Assembly: GCF_000154845.1 (NCBI RefSeq)
Contig: NZ_DS981495.1
Span: 1-64,000 of the forward strand
From: Phocaeicola coprocola DSM 17136
GTDB lineage: Bacteria > Bacteroidota > Bacteroidia > Bacteroidales > Bacteroidaceae
Reading direction: 5' to 3'
Length of the DNA stretch: 64,000 bases
In this document: positions 48,901-53,341 of the stretch, piece by piece
Layout of the letters: every line of letters starts with the position of its first letter
Position numbering within the stretch: position 1 is the first letter of the stretch
Notes under the pieces: generated by a model
The model's input: only the letters and a program-made list of their open reading frames with translations
Database searches by the model: none
What the model was told of the DNA's origin: nothing
Made by a program: the position numbers and the translations under genes

Positions 48901-49089
48901 ATGAAGAAAGAATTAGGTAAATGGCTGATGGATATAGCCAAGTATTTGACGACAGCGGTTTTGTTGTCCTCTGTTTTCAACGACATAAAGGACTCTTGGA
49001 TAATTTACTTTGTTGTGTCTATTGCCATAGTATTAACACTACTTTCAGGCTTATGGCTTGTAAGAGAAGAAAAAAAGGAGGGAGAATGA
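48901..49089 (+). CDS. Small two-helix membrane protein (DUF6722-like)
   Basis: 62 residues from the ATG at 48901; a TTG at 48880 is in frame but lies within the promoter. It begins M-K-K-E-L-G-K-W-L-M-D-I-A-K-Y-L, has two membrane helices (~14-28 and 32-52) and a charged tail ending R-E-E-K-K-E-G-E. It resembles small Bacteroidales membrane proteins labelled DUF6722, from memory. Function unknown. Followed immediately by an even smaller ORF. Confidence 0.65.
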   Translation: MKKELGKWLMDIAKYLTTAVLLSSVFNDIKDSWIIYFVVSIAIVLTLLSGLWLVREEKKEGE

Positions 49090-49090
49090 T

Positions 49091-49201
49091 ATGGGAGCAA
49101 TTATCATGTCAGTACTTGTGTCGGTTATAGCTATTGTCGGTGTGATTTACTTTAATCATCAAGACAAGAAAGAAGCATTGAAAAATAATAATAAAGGATA
49201 G
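49091..49201 (+). CDS. 36-residue single-helix micropeptide
   Basis: ATG one base after the preceding stop, TAG at 49199-49201. One membrane helix (residues ~3-22, rich in Val and Ile) followed by a basic tail (H-Q-D-K-K-E-A-L-K-N-N-N-K-G). The tight spacing and single-pass layout suggest it is made with its neighbour. A terminator follows. Too short for family assignment. Confidence 0.5.
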   Translation: MGAIIMSVLVSVIAIVGVIYFNHQDKKEALKNNNKG

Positions 49202-49246
49202 TTTGTAACACACATTGGTTCGAACTACCTGAGTTTATAAAGTTAG

Positions 49247-49290
49247 AAAAGCTATTGGAGACGTATATTTCCAGTGGCTTTTCTTTTTTT
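49247..49290 (+). terminator. Terminator after the micropeptide gene
   Basis: AAAAGCTATTGGA (49247-49259) and TCCAGTGGCTTTT (49270-49282) pair, followed by CTTTTTTT. Confidence 0.7.
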
Positions 49291-49330
49291 GTGAATGGTT
49301 GTATTGATTCTGTTAAAGTAAAGGATCTTC

Positions 49331-49749
49331 TTAAATAATGATAGTCATTAATTCCATGATCAGTATGCTGAATAGAGGAAATAAAATAACAAATACAACG
49401 TAATATAATCCAATTTTATAGTTTTCCTTTCTTTTCTTTAAATCCATTTGTAAATATTCTTCGTGAATTGCCTGAACATATTTTTTTGTTTTAAGTGTTT
49501 TACGAAAAAATACTTAGCCGAAAAACATAATATTGTAACGCAAACAATAAGTGTGGAATTGTTTCTCAATTCATTAAATAATCGTACGGATAAAAAAAGC
49601 AATATAATTACTATATATGAGAATACAATCAAAAAACCTACTCCTATGTGGTTATATACTTCATTGTCATTATATTCCATTTTTTGCTTTTCTAAAGAAT
49701 ATATTTTATAGATAACTATTTTCTGTAAGCAGTTTTGTATTGCTTTCAT
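49331..49749 (-). pseudogene. Four-helix membrane protein, frameshifted at a 7-A tract
   Basis: The frame from the ATG at 49749 ends early at 49438. One extra A in the run at 49481-49487 (A7 on the coding strand) would restore a frame running to a stop at 49331-49333. The restored C-terminus (Y-V-Q-A-I-H-E-E-Y-L-Q-M-D) aligns with Y-V-Q-I-V-H-E-E-Y-L-K-M-N of the neighbouring gene, so the shift is real relative to its paralogue. Restored length is about 139 residues with four membrane helices. It could be a true pseudogene, a slippage-controlled gene or an assembly error. Confidence 0.7.
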
Positions 49750-49789
49750 AGGTACTTATTTATAAACAGTTACAGCTGAAAGAGTCAAC

Positions 49790-50224
49790 TTAAAAGATTA
49801 CAGTTATCAGCTTTAAGAACGCAATAATTATAATAGGATAAAAGAATATAGGTATTACTTTCCATAATCCACGCTTATAATGTTTTTTTCTTTCTTCTAC
49901 ATTCATTTTTAAATATTCTTCGTGGACTATCTGAACATAACTACTTTTCTTAAGCTTTTTCATAATTAAATGAACCGCTATTTGACACAAAATAACAACT
50001 CCTATGCCAGTTGCTAACGGATTTTGCAGAGTACCAAAGATGCGTATAAGAATAAAGATAAAACTTATGACAGTATATACAACAAATGTCTGTAAAGTTA
50101 CCCAAATTCCATCGTAAACACTGCTTTCATCATATTCTCGTTTGTTTATATCCAGCAAATAAATATTTGCAATTACAATCTCATAATAGAATGATTTTAT
50201 TTTTTCATACCCTTTTATGTGCAT
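49790..50224 (-). CDS. Four-helix membrane protein, paralogue of the frameshifted neighbour
   Basis: 144 residues with membrane segments near 45-62, 70-88, 120-132 and 133-143. Shared words with the downstream paralogue include (E/K)-I-V-I-x-x-I-Y-x-L, the Y-x-x-I/G-x-V core, and H-E-E-Y-L. No known family recognised. The ATG used here (50222-50224) lies inside the end of the IS21 element; before insertion the frame reads back to an in-frame stop without an ATG, so the native start may have been lost or used another codon. Function unknown. Confidence 0.6.
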   Translation of the reverse strand: MHIKGYEKIKSFYYEIVIANIYLLDINKREYDESSVYDGIWVTLQTFVVYTVISFIFILIRIFGTLQNPLATGIGVVILCQIAVHLIMKKLKKSSYVQIVHEEYLKMNVEERKKHYKRGLWKVIPIFFYPIIIIAFLKLITVIF

Positions 50225-50225
50225 A

Positions 50226-50270
50226 TTCCGGCGGATACCCGTTCAGCATTTCCGGTGATATCCGTTCAGT
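50226..50270. repeat. IS21 left-end terminal repeats (two copies)
   Basis: TTCCGGCGGATACCCGTTCA at about 50226-50245 and a shorter copy TTCCGGTGATATCCGTTCA at 50250-50268 match the inverted form of the right-end repeats. Such repeats are transposase binding sites in IS21-type elements. Confidence 0.8.
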
Positions 50271-50301
50271 CCCCAGTTAGTATTCAGTGTTGTTGGCAAA
50301 G

Positions 50302-51030
50302 TTAATACTTCTTTCTTAGGCTCTCTCCTTTAAGGTCAAATTTTATTGCCTTATGCACGATTCTGTCCAGACAGGCTTCCGCAATGAGCTCGCTTTGGAA
50401 CACATCATACCAGTCTGCAACGGGAAGCTGGCTGGCCGGGATGAGTGCCTTCCGGTTGTACCGGTCATCTATGATCTGTTCAAAGTCATGCTGTATCTGG
50501 CCGTCCAGCTTGACCATCCCAAAGTCATCGATAATCAGCAGGTCATGTGCGTTCAGCTTCCGGAAGAAGTTTGTTTCCCGTCCTTCCAGATGTGCAAGCT
50601 TCAGGTTCTCGATGAGCATGTTCATCGTGAAGTACAGTACCTTCCGGCCGTTCCTGCATGCCCTGTCACCCAGGGCACAGGCAAAGTAGGACTTCCCGGT
50701 TCCTGCCGGTCCGGTAATGATGACCGTCATTCCGCCCGTGATGTAATTTCCGGTTGCAAGGTCGGCTGCAGAGCAGGTCTGTATGCCCCTTGCCGTGTCC
50801 GTTTCAAGTTCTTCCATCGAGGCTCTCAGACGGAAGCCGGCATTCTTTATAAGACGCTGGATGCGGTTGTTCCCTCTCGTGTCACGTTCGTACTGGAGCA
50901 TGATCTGCATGCCTTCACGCAGGGTAAGCTTGTCCAACTGATGTGTTTCTTCCAGAGAGCTCCAGCAGCTTGCCATTCCCGGAAGCTTCAGCTTGTGCAG
51001 TGTTCTTTCTGTTTCGTTGCTCATAATCAT
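50302..51030 (-). CDS. istB: IS21 helper ATPase
   Basis: 242 residues; an alternative ATG two codons in gives M-S-N-E-T-E-R. AAA+ domain with Walker A I-T-G-P-A-G-T-G-K-S-Y near residue 105, Walker B L-L-I-I-D-D-F-G near residue 165, and a C-terminal S-Q-L-P-V-A-D-W-Y motif near residue 198. IstB regulates target capture for IstA. Its ATG lies directly after the istA stop. No frameshift is seen. Confidence 0.93.
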   Translation of the reverse strand: MIMSNETERTLHKLKLPGMASCWSSLEETHQLDKLTLREGMQIMLQYERDTRGNNRIQRLIKNAGFRLRASMEELETDTARGIQTCSAADLATGNYITGGMTVIITGPAGTGKSYFACALGDRACRNGRKVLYFTMNMLIENLKLAHLEGRETNFFRKLNAHDLLIIDDFGMVKLDGQIQHDFEQIIDDRYNRKALIPASQLPVADWYDVFQSELIAEACLDRIVHKAIKFDLKGESLRKKY

Positions 51031-52638
51031 TTATTGTTGTTGGTTTATGTCATTTCCTGTAAAATAGTCTTTTCCGCGCATGTTCCCGTGGTTTGACGGT
51101 GTAGGCGCATGGAAGATTACCGTCTCGTCTGCGGATGCATTCATGCCGTTACGTCTGAGTATGGCTTCAAACTTGCTGTAGGAGTAAATACCGTACTCCA
51201 TGCACTGACGGCAGGTAAGGTCAAACGTGGCAAGGTCATACTTCCTTCTGAGGCTGACTATGGAGTTGCACAGCTTGTAATACACCTCTTCAGGCTGTGC
51301 GGTACGTTTGGGGTCAAAGATTCTTTTTACATATTCATGGCAGTCAGGTGATATATCTTTTGCTTTCTCCACATAATAGGCTGCCGAACGCTCCATAATC
51401 ACCCTGCAGCTGGATGCGAGATGTTCCCTGACTGTGGTATAGCCGTATGTATGGCTGCGGATATGTGAGGCCACCAGTTTCTGCTCCACATAGACCTTGA
51501 CCCATGAACGCGTAAAGACTACTCTTGCCTGTTTTCCTACATGGATATAGGGGACGGAGTAAAAATGGGTCACCTTGTCCTGTCTCAGCTCCACATGGCA
51601 GTTTGCCTGTACTTTCAGATCGGCATACAGGCGCATCTCATAGGGTTCCGGTTTCAAGGGTTTCAGCAGCTCCTTCTCCATGGCATGAAAACGCTCCTCA
51701 CGGCTGTAGGGACGCTTCTGCATACGGGTCTGGTTGTGCCTTTCCATCAGCTCCCATACGGCACGGTTCAGTTCCAGGAGTGAATGGAAGGTACGGTTAC
51801 GCAATCTGGCATAGACACGGTTATATGTAATCCTTACGGAGTCCTCTACCAGAGCCTTCTGTGTCGGCGATGCCGGGTCGCATGGCAGTACCACGAAATG
51901 GTAGTAGTTGCCCATGTCCTCAAGAGCCTTGTTCAGCTTCGGCTCATGCCGGTCATTGCTGATTACAGCCGATTTGAGGTTGTCAGGAGTCAGTATGGAA
52001 GGTACACCGCCCAGATGTTCCAGACACATCCTTATGGCATACAGAAAGTCCTCCGTCTTCTGCGAAGGTACACATACCACATAGGTATAGTCGCTGTAAG
52101 GCATGCAGGCGACAAACACCTCCACCTTGACAATTTCTCCGGTTTCGGCATCCACATAGCTGAGCTTGTCACCGGCAAAGTCCACCATGAGCTTTTCACC
52201 CGGTTTGTAGGTGTTGGCCAGTACGGCCGTAACATCCTTCTTCGCAACGAGATTCTGCTTCAGATGGTAATAGAACTGTGACTTGCCGTAACCATCGGGA
52301 TGAGTCGCACGGTATTCATCGAACAGGACCTGACGGCTTACATGGGATTTGGGGTCCGCCAGCAGTTCCCTGTATCTGGGTAGCAGGATCAGAAACTCTT
52401 CCATTCTCCTGTCCGTATATGCCGGAGAACCAGCATGGAACATCCGTTCCAACTCGGGATCGTCAATCTCAAGGAGGTCGCTGATGTTCCATCCGTTGGC
52501 TTTTACTGTATTCACATAACCGTTGACGGTTTCCTTGTCAATCGGTAACTTGCGGCTTACACCGCGGTTGGATTCTCCGGCCTGCTTGAGCTGGAGTACT
52601 TGTTTTATCAGACTCATATCCTTTGTTGTTCCTGCCAT
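51031..52638 (-). CDS. istA: IS21 transposase
   Basis: 535 residues from the ATG at 52638 (M-A-G-T-T-K-D-M-S). The longer frame to 52893 runs through the terminal repeats and was rejected. An N-terminal helix-turn-helix (Q-A-G-E-S-N-R-G-V-S-R-K-L, residues ~18-30) binds the end repeats. The DDE core has L-M-V-D-F-A-G-D near residue 140, I-L-T-P-D-N-L-K near residue 220 and K-A-L-V-E-D-S-V near residue 257. A C-terminal beta-barrel follows. Intact. Confidence 0.93.
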   Translation of the reverse strand: MAGTTKDMSLIKQVLQLKQAGESNRGVSRKLPIDKETVNGYVNTVKANGWNISDLLEIDDPELERMFHAGSPAYTDRRMEEFLILLPRYRELLADPKSHVSRQVLFDEYRATHPDGYGKSQFYYHLKQNLVAKKDVTAVLANTYKPGEKLMVDFAGDKLSYVDAETGEIVKVEVFVACMPYSDYTYVVCVPSQKTEDFLYAIRMCLEHLGGVPSILTPDNLKSAVISNDRHEPKLNKALEDMGNYYHFVVLPCDPASPTQKALVEDSVRITYNRVYARLRNRTFHSLLELNRAVWELMERHNQTRMQKRPYSREERFHAMEKELLKPLKPEPYEMRLYADLKVQANCHVELRQDKVTHFYSVPYIHVGKQARVVFTRSWVKVYVEQKLVASHIRSHTYGYTTVREHLASSCRVIMERSAAYYVEKAKDISPDCHEYVKRIFDPKRTAQPEEVYYKLCNSIVSLRRKYDLATFDLTCRQCMEYGIYSYSKFEAILRRNGMNASADETVIFHAPTPSNHGNMRGKDYFTGNDINQQQ

Positions 52639-52696
52639 GACTGTGCTGTTTCTTGTTAGCTTACCAGCACAAAGGAAACTGAAACCGGGGAAAGAA

Positions 52697-52993
52697 TGAA
52701 CGGATATGCTCCGGAAACGAAGATATACGCTCACAATTCCATGCACGGCTGAACGGATATACTCCGGAAAATCTGAAAGCATACGTCTAAAGTGAACGGG
52801 TATGCTCCGGAAAAAGGGTGCTACAACCTGCAATTCTCGGAGGTGAACGGATATGCTCCGGAAAAATTGAGATTTTAATGTCTGGTTATCCATTTTTTCA
52901 TCCTTTTAGGGGATGAACGGATAAAAATTACGCTTTTAAGGTATGGTTTTATACCCTAATAAGCTGCCGGAAAGTGAACGGGTATGCTCCGGA
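52697..52993. repeat. IS21 right-end terminal repeats (five copies plus a partial)
   Basis: TGAACGGATATGCTCCGGAA or one- to two-base variants at 52697-52716, 52750-52769, 52793-52812, 52844-52863 and 52974-52993, with a partial (TGAACGGATA) near 52914. Spacing is 43-60 bases except for the longer gap at the partial copy. All share one orientation, inverted relative to the left end. Confidence 0.85.
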
Positions 52994-53007
52994 ATATGTA
53001 CTTTTAT

Positions 53008-53341
53008 GTTTAAATATTATATAAGTAGCTGTATAGATACTTAGGTTAATGGATTTTTTAAGTTTAGACTTATAGATTAGGTTATCGGCAAACTTATATG
53101 CAATATTCGTAAAATTTTTCAATATATGCAAGCTTGTGAGCGTTCGTTTGTGTTACGGAGAAAGTGTAATTGTGGCATGATTGTAATCGGTGGTTATTGT
53201 TGAGACAGAGAGAAAGTGTCCGGATAGCTCTGTAATGTTCAAATAATCTGTTCTCTCACTTAGTCTTTCCGGTGGAAGAATAAGGGAGATTTTATTTTTA
53301 TTTCCTAATTTTGCACTTGCAACTAATTAACGGATAAAGAA
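53008..53341. other. Intergenic region between IS21 and metA
   Basis: A/T-rich, no credible gene on either strand; a 60-residue minus-strand frame crosses the IS border and looks spurious. TAATTTTG at 53306-53313 is a plausible metA -7 element. Confidence 0.5.
53306..53313 (+). promoter_or_regulatory. -7 element for metA
   Basis: TAATTTTG matches TAnnTTTG, 28 bases before the ATG. No convincing -33 box. No SAM riboswitch-like structure was recognised. Confidence 0.4.

Follow-up and report, generated by a model that had tools for sequence, protein, structure and literature searches.

Among described genes broken at a run of A, tssM of Citrobacter rodentium is interrupted after a tract of eleven A, and the sections of the report that deal with this tract give proof that slippage rescues the gene (PMC4256274). 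In the relevant part of a bacterial survey, a large share of genomes avoid slippery runs once these reach nine nucleotides, and eight A are discussed for one IS group (PMC1088944). Gene B, described here, is likewise interrupted after an A tract, although its tract has seven A. Together with a neighbouring paralogue, gene A, it lies between a TolC-like outer-membrane efflux gene and metA (both named by Pfam) in a stretch of 64,000 nucleotides of Phocaeicola coprocola DSM 17136, referred to below as the window. The two genes probably represent an accessory, low-GC, horizontally moving pair from an undescribed membrane-protein family, caught in the course of decay.

Frame breaks in genes A and B

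On the forward strand the tract in gene B reads as seven T, the A7 tract itself being on the minus strand (Table 1). The minus-strand ORF of gene B has 103 codons (49438-49749) and ends at a stop about 14 codons beyond the tract. The adjacent frame is open from ahead of the tract until a stop at 49331-49333, and encodes a C-terminus with the motif YVQ..HEEYL. As the original prediction had it, the ORF therefore quits the paralogue-like frame at A7, and this frameshift is real in the assembly. The description of the two genes as tandem membrane paralogues also holds. Searched against gene A within the same genome, the N-terminal part of gene B matches with an E-value of 6.3e-9 and the C-terminal part with 2.9e-10, with position-matched identities of 30/87 and 25/57 (stop counted), respectively. 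None of 10,000 shuffles reached the observed identity in either part. Compared with paralogue A and with the relatives of A, gene B has lost its frame relative to intact homologues. The C-terminal part carries no further stop codon, which fits a single recent lesion. As no intact B orthologue was found, the ancestral tract length follows from the paralogue and the frame alone.

Table 1. Features of the gene A/gene B locus (positions in the window).
Feature	Position	Strand	Remarks
Gene B	49331-49749	-	Paralogue of gene A, neighbouring
Gene B, N-terminal part	49489-49749	-	Own frame, 87 codons; 30/87 residues identical to A
A7 tract, site of gene B frame change	49481-49487	-	From sequence and frames
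Gene B, C-terminal part	49331-49501	-	Adjacent frame, 56 codons to stop, YVQ..HEEYL; E 2.9e-10 to A
Gene B segment without counterpart in B. ilei (G016)	49332-49717		blastn pieces 49147-49331 and 49718-50220 abut
Gene A, open frame	49790-50224	-	144 codons; first five bases from IS tip
Gene A, native start codon	50206-50208	-	By alignment with four relatives; now out of frame
A6 tract after native start of gene A	50200-50205	-	A7 in G016, G020, G025 and G059
IS21-like element	50220-53000		Ends inferred where copies and duplication meet
IstB	50302-51030	-	Pfam E 6.9e-55
Transposase-like ORF with Mu-transpos_C_2 domain	51031-52893	-	E 8e-10
Target duplication, 8 bp, left copy	50212-50219		CTTTTATG; right copy 53001-53008

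Some full-length B could still be made by -1 ribosomal frameshifting on A AAA AAT, or by polymerase slippage on A7. The slippery heptamer is present with the frame right for a -1 slip, the required frame being the one that such a slip on CAA AAA AAT would give. However, RNA folding downstream of A7 revealed no stimulating structure better than shuffles in two stretches (z +2.24 for 120 nt and z +0.37 for 67 nt, pseudoknots lying outside the method). No second gene B in which the arrangement might recur was found among the 61 genomes of the genus. In the portions of the two reports that concern it, published slippage usually takes place at longer runs (PMC1088944, PMC4256274). Recoding of this kind is considered highly improbable.

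A second lesion, overlooked in the original prediction, affects gene A. Its native start codon is out of frame because it is followed by six A where relatives carry seven, and a stop codon lies two codons beyond this start. Gene A is intact in four relatives: Bacteroides ilei Marseille-P3208 (G016), Bacteroides sp. An322 (G020), G025 and a metagenome bin (G059). All four carry A7 after the start, although with three of the four genes identical this amounts to about two independent witnesses. The gene A copies of B. ilei (L009/L024) and An322 (L010/L025) are 68% and 64% identical to that of the window, respectively, and the former has the same location, between the TolC-like gene and metA. Unlike the window, both genomes have the native start in frame ahead of its A7 tract, no IS at the gene and no complete gene B.

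The open frame of gene A begins at 50224, within the tip of an IS21-like element. The span originally listed runs to 50224, but its first five nucleotides (50220-50224) belong to the element and not to the gene. The element lies upstream of gene A, 11 nt from the native start, and separates the gene from the DNA further up. It is flanked by an 8-bp target duplication, CTTTTATG. The empty site in B. ilei holds a single copy with one base different, CTTCTATG. The left end of the element matches six other places in the genome. Gene A may be expressed as a fusion with the IS tip, or not at all. At the right end of the element, five 27-nt repeats (78-100% alike, 52697-53001) are possibly binding sites of the transposase.

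The locus in Bacteroides ilei and the distribution of the pair

In B. ilei, gene B consists of its ten initial codons, MKAIQNCLQK, which run straight into the DNA that lies downstream of B. The blastn pieces on either side of the missing segment overlap by seven bases at their junction in the B. ilei sequence, and the locus is a net 394 bp shorter between shared anchors. Insertion of gene B into a B. ilei-like ancestor was considered and rejected, as the remnant retains the start of B and its first ten codons; for the same reason, a deletion in B. ilei is simpler than an insertion. With gene B reduced in B. ilei and frameshifted in the window, one relative no longer has the gene and the other no longer has it in frame. 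A small DUF6722 gene (window 48901-49089, Pfam E 4.1e-18) is located directly downstream of the TolC-like gene.

Gene A has a patchy distribution, being found in 5/61 genomes of the genus, that of the window included. A sixth match in the genus (G011) was dismissed as chance, as it lies antisense in a gene that we read as SusC-like. The N-terminal part of gene B also matched five of the 61 genomes, but outside its own genome these matches are to gene A copies only (31-33% identity), so that gene B itself is found in 1/61. At the family level, a gene A profile matched six of 399 sampled genomes (that of the window, G016, G020 and G025, with weak matches in G153 and G240), and at the order level a C-terminal profile matched two of 393 (that of the window and G558), the genus, family and order samples overlapping. 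The match in G240 has an E-value of 8.3e-6 in its genome and runs antisense across the start of another ORF, and that in G558 covers 50 residues of a 447-aa frame; both were dropped as chance. G153 (L021) was retained solely as a possible distant relative. At the sensitivity used, the genes had no match among plasmids, phages or viral contigs. The pair is dispensable in relatives, given that ten codons of B remain in B. ilei and that A is found in five and B in one of the 61 genomes.

The original prediction had raised a homopolymer switch, rather than decay, as the meaning of the A7 tract. Slipped-strand mispairing at the A tracts would then toggle gene B, and perhaps gene A as well. Both neighbouring genes do carry homopolymer lesions, and the tract of gene A comes directly after its start codon, which is a usual position for a phase switch. 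Runs of A or T of this size are, however, common in the genome: the 421,611 bases sampled hold 463 of six, 146 of seven, 33 of eight and seven of nine, so that lengths of six and seven are unremarkable here and A7 is not unusually long. The start tract of gene A is A7 in 4/4 relatives (about two independent observations), and the tract lesions are accompanied by an IS insertion and a deletion. Given the short tract of the neighbouring gene, the IS21-like element that cuts off gene A, the deletion of B in B. ilei and the ordinariness of sevens, a switch in place of decay is not supported, and we regard phase variation as very unlikely. A search of the literature on Bacteroides phase variation and on frameshifts at homopolymeric tracts found nothing on the gene A/B pair.

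Assembly soundness and the case for decay

The strongest rival to decay is an undercall in the assembly: sequencing would have missed one base at either A tract, or at both, and the organism itself would carry intact genes. The AT content of both genes is very high (28% GC in gene A and 24% in gene B, versus 42% in the 421,611 sampled bases), and they contain two and five runs of six or more, respectively, as would suit such an error. Moreover, IS21-like copies at N gaps or contig ends of this draft (C57 (L070), C63, C78 and C70 of G000 at N runs, and C6 at a contig end) differ by single bases in short homopolymers, mostly deletions, with 1 to 15 gaps each. This is an assembly error signature of the draft. 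The contig of the window (121.6 kb), however, has no N gap, and the IS copy inside contig C60 (L059) carries no such error within the element.

Homopolymers outside these copies were assessed by comparing 940 kb of the B. ilei genome with the 421,611 bases of this genome, which gave 96 orthologue-like matches covering 97,626 bases. This set supersedes an earlier, smaller one (38 intact, 4 partial, 2 split). Intact matches number 89, with six partial and one split, the last being an IS copy close to a gap. Of the partial matches, three were inspected and have differing tails or are apparently non-coding, rather than frameshifted; among the other three, one is an IS copy near the C57 gap. Gene A is itself one of the 96, with two runs including the start lesion, and was left out. 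The remaining 95 matches contain 95 runs, and, the split IS copy near a gap apart, no tract frameshift was found at the 78 sixes or at the 17 sevens, the latter being a small sample. Being at the extreme end of its match, the start lesion of gene A went unflagged, and thus the comparison is blind to lesions at gene ends. Neither the shortened B of B. ilei nor the IS insertion at gene A depends on how the tracts were called. An undercall is therefore unlikely, and would be a concern above all for sevens and near gene ends.

Decay is favored by the conjunction of two tract lesions in adjacent genes with an IS that cuts gene A off from its upstream DNA, by the retention of A in B. ilei beside a gene B cut to MKAIQNCLQK, by the patchy distribution of gene A, and by tracts that look sound elsewhere in the sampled assembly. 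It is also favored by the history of gene A, which was under purifying selection (dN 0.175 and dS 0.735 between the window and B. ilei; dN 0.039 and dS 0.167 between B. ilei and G025). We infer that the lesions are real in the cell and have cost the genes their function. Gene B would have been frameshifted when its A tract, a mutation hot spot, changed length by one base, and in gene A a difference of one base in a second A tract would have put the native start out of frame. Then or earlier, as far as the order can be inferred, the IS21-like copy would have inserted 11 nt upstream of the gene A start, leaving gene A with an open frame that now begins only from an ATG in the IS tip. Some observations run counter to decay. 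Each gene has a single lesion with its downstream frame kept, and a switch or a recoding site would look alike; gene A retains an open frame of 144 codons; and undercalls do occur in the draft, at IS copies by gaps and contig ends.

Movement of gene A, its possible relatives and described immunity arrays

G020, G025 and G059 share one gene A sequence across the 400 nt compared, whereas their flanking topB and rsmF genes (Pfam names) differ: identity is 85-86% when G025 is set against G020 or G059, and 95-97% between the latter two. In these three genomes, gene A lies within a block of approximately 0.9 kb between topB and rsmF (L012 1184-2096 in G025). The block is 98-99.7% identical among them, ends in 19-nt inverted repeats (84% complementary) and is absent from this position in B. 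ilei and in the genome of the window. Between B. ilei and G025, gene A is 94% identical. Nine pieces of the topB-rsmF region align between these two genomes, but six of them are only 74-79% identical; the remaining three, each shorter than 90 bp, are 83-90% identical. A dispersed repeat of about 120-180 bp (L012 about 1314-1500) has 12 to 26 matches per genome in G017, G020, G025 and G059, some of these being to neighbouring parts of the query.

Compared with those of B. ilei and G025, the gene A of the window has 88-90% identity over its first 50 nt and 92-100% over its final 100 nt, falling to 48% in the lowest 50-nt stretch between. Values of dS are 0.23-0.40 at the ends; in the middle of the gene dS is 2.9 with B. 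ilei, which is saturated, and is not computable with G025. Saturated silent change in the middle but not at the ends points to exchange rather than uneven constraint. At the sequence level, gene A bears signs of having recently moved between Bacteroides species and of having had its middle segment swapped.

The pair had been predicted to belong to no recognised family, and the searches agree. Taking as the criterion a score over the curated cut-off or, for models that lack one, a convincing E-value, neither gene was assigned by Pfam, NCBIfam, PHROGs or PADLOC. The best weak matches, both found with relatives, are PHROG 15839 (E 0.002) and DUF4408 (E 0.0022; 18.2 bits, cut-off 22). A PDB sequence search gave nothing convincing, and Foldseek gave no match at E <= 0.001 against PDB or against viral models. 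An AlphaFold model (mean pLDDT 79, pTM 0.69) is all helical with five helices, three of which are predicted, by our own reading of the model, to span the membrane.

A possible distant relative is the L021 family, membrane proteins of approximately 155 aa from another genus, g14, of the same taxonomic family; it is present in 8/45 genomes of g14. Sixty-six C-terminal columns align with gene A, whereas the N-terminal half does not. The hhalign score is 36.8, against maxima of 18.7 for 30 other membrane ORFs, 16.5 for the reversed profile and 20.9 for 200 shuffles, but it is inflated by selection, since L021 was first picked from 399 genomes; another member, L145, scores 24.9 alone. Homology of this family to gene A is therefore suggestive only. 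Like genes A and B, L021-family genes occur in tandem, with a triple array in G410 (L142 394-1983). Broken or partial copies are seen in G258, G326 and G424 (L146, L147 and L150).

In G417 (L153 1219-7103), an ABC transporter gene, a glycosyltransferase-like gene and two ORFs precede an L021-family copy cut by the contig end. By our reading, the two ORFs may be GG-leader bacteriocins; Pfam names neither, and an NCBIfam leader model for one falls below its cut-off (E 0.092). Four other L021-family neighbourhoods were read and contain no such transporter and bacteriocin cluster, with the surroundings in G245, G825 and G326 viewed only close to the gene. As the bacteriocin-like cluster is seen in G417 alone, a membrane immunity or resistance function for genes A and B is a guess. 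In its fullest form, the guess is that A and B belong to an unrecognised Bacteroidaceae family, horizontally moving, tandemly amplified and segmentally shuffled, that would confer immunity to membrane-acting bacteriocins or effectors and be lost by tract mutation once the attacker is gone. The hints are the identical gene A amid divergent topB and rsmF, the mosaic middle, the triple tandem in g14 and the putative bacteriocins of G417, and we hold this to be doubtful.

The frameshift as such is ordinary, with two accessory genes apparently eroding at A tracts and by an IS insertion. The interest lies in the gene A family, which has no name in the libraries searched. If gene A does give resistance to a rival's toxin, it would be a readily tested handle on gut competition. 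A close comparison is with the rAID orphan immunity arrays of gut Bacteroidales, as set out in the pertinent sections of PMC12247911. Unlike in those arrays, genes A and B have no associated recombinase, immunity domain or recognised toxin partner, the only recombinases that Pfam finds among the ten neighbouring ORFs being IS transposases. What the two systems share is their arrangement: in both, diversifying accessory genes are set in arrays (PMC12247911).
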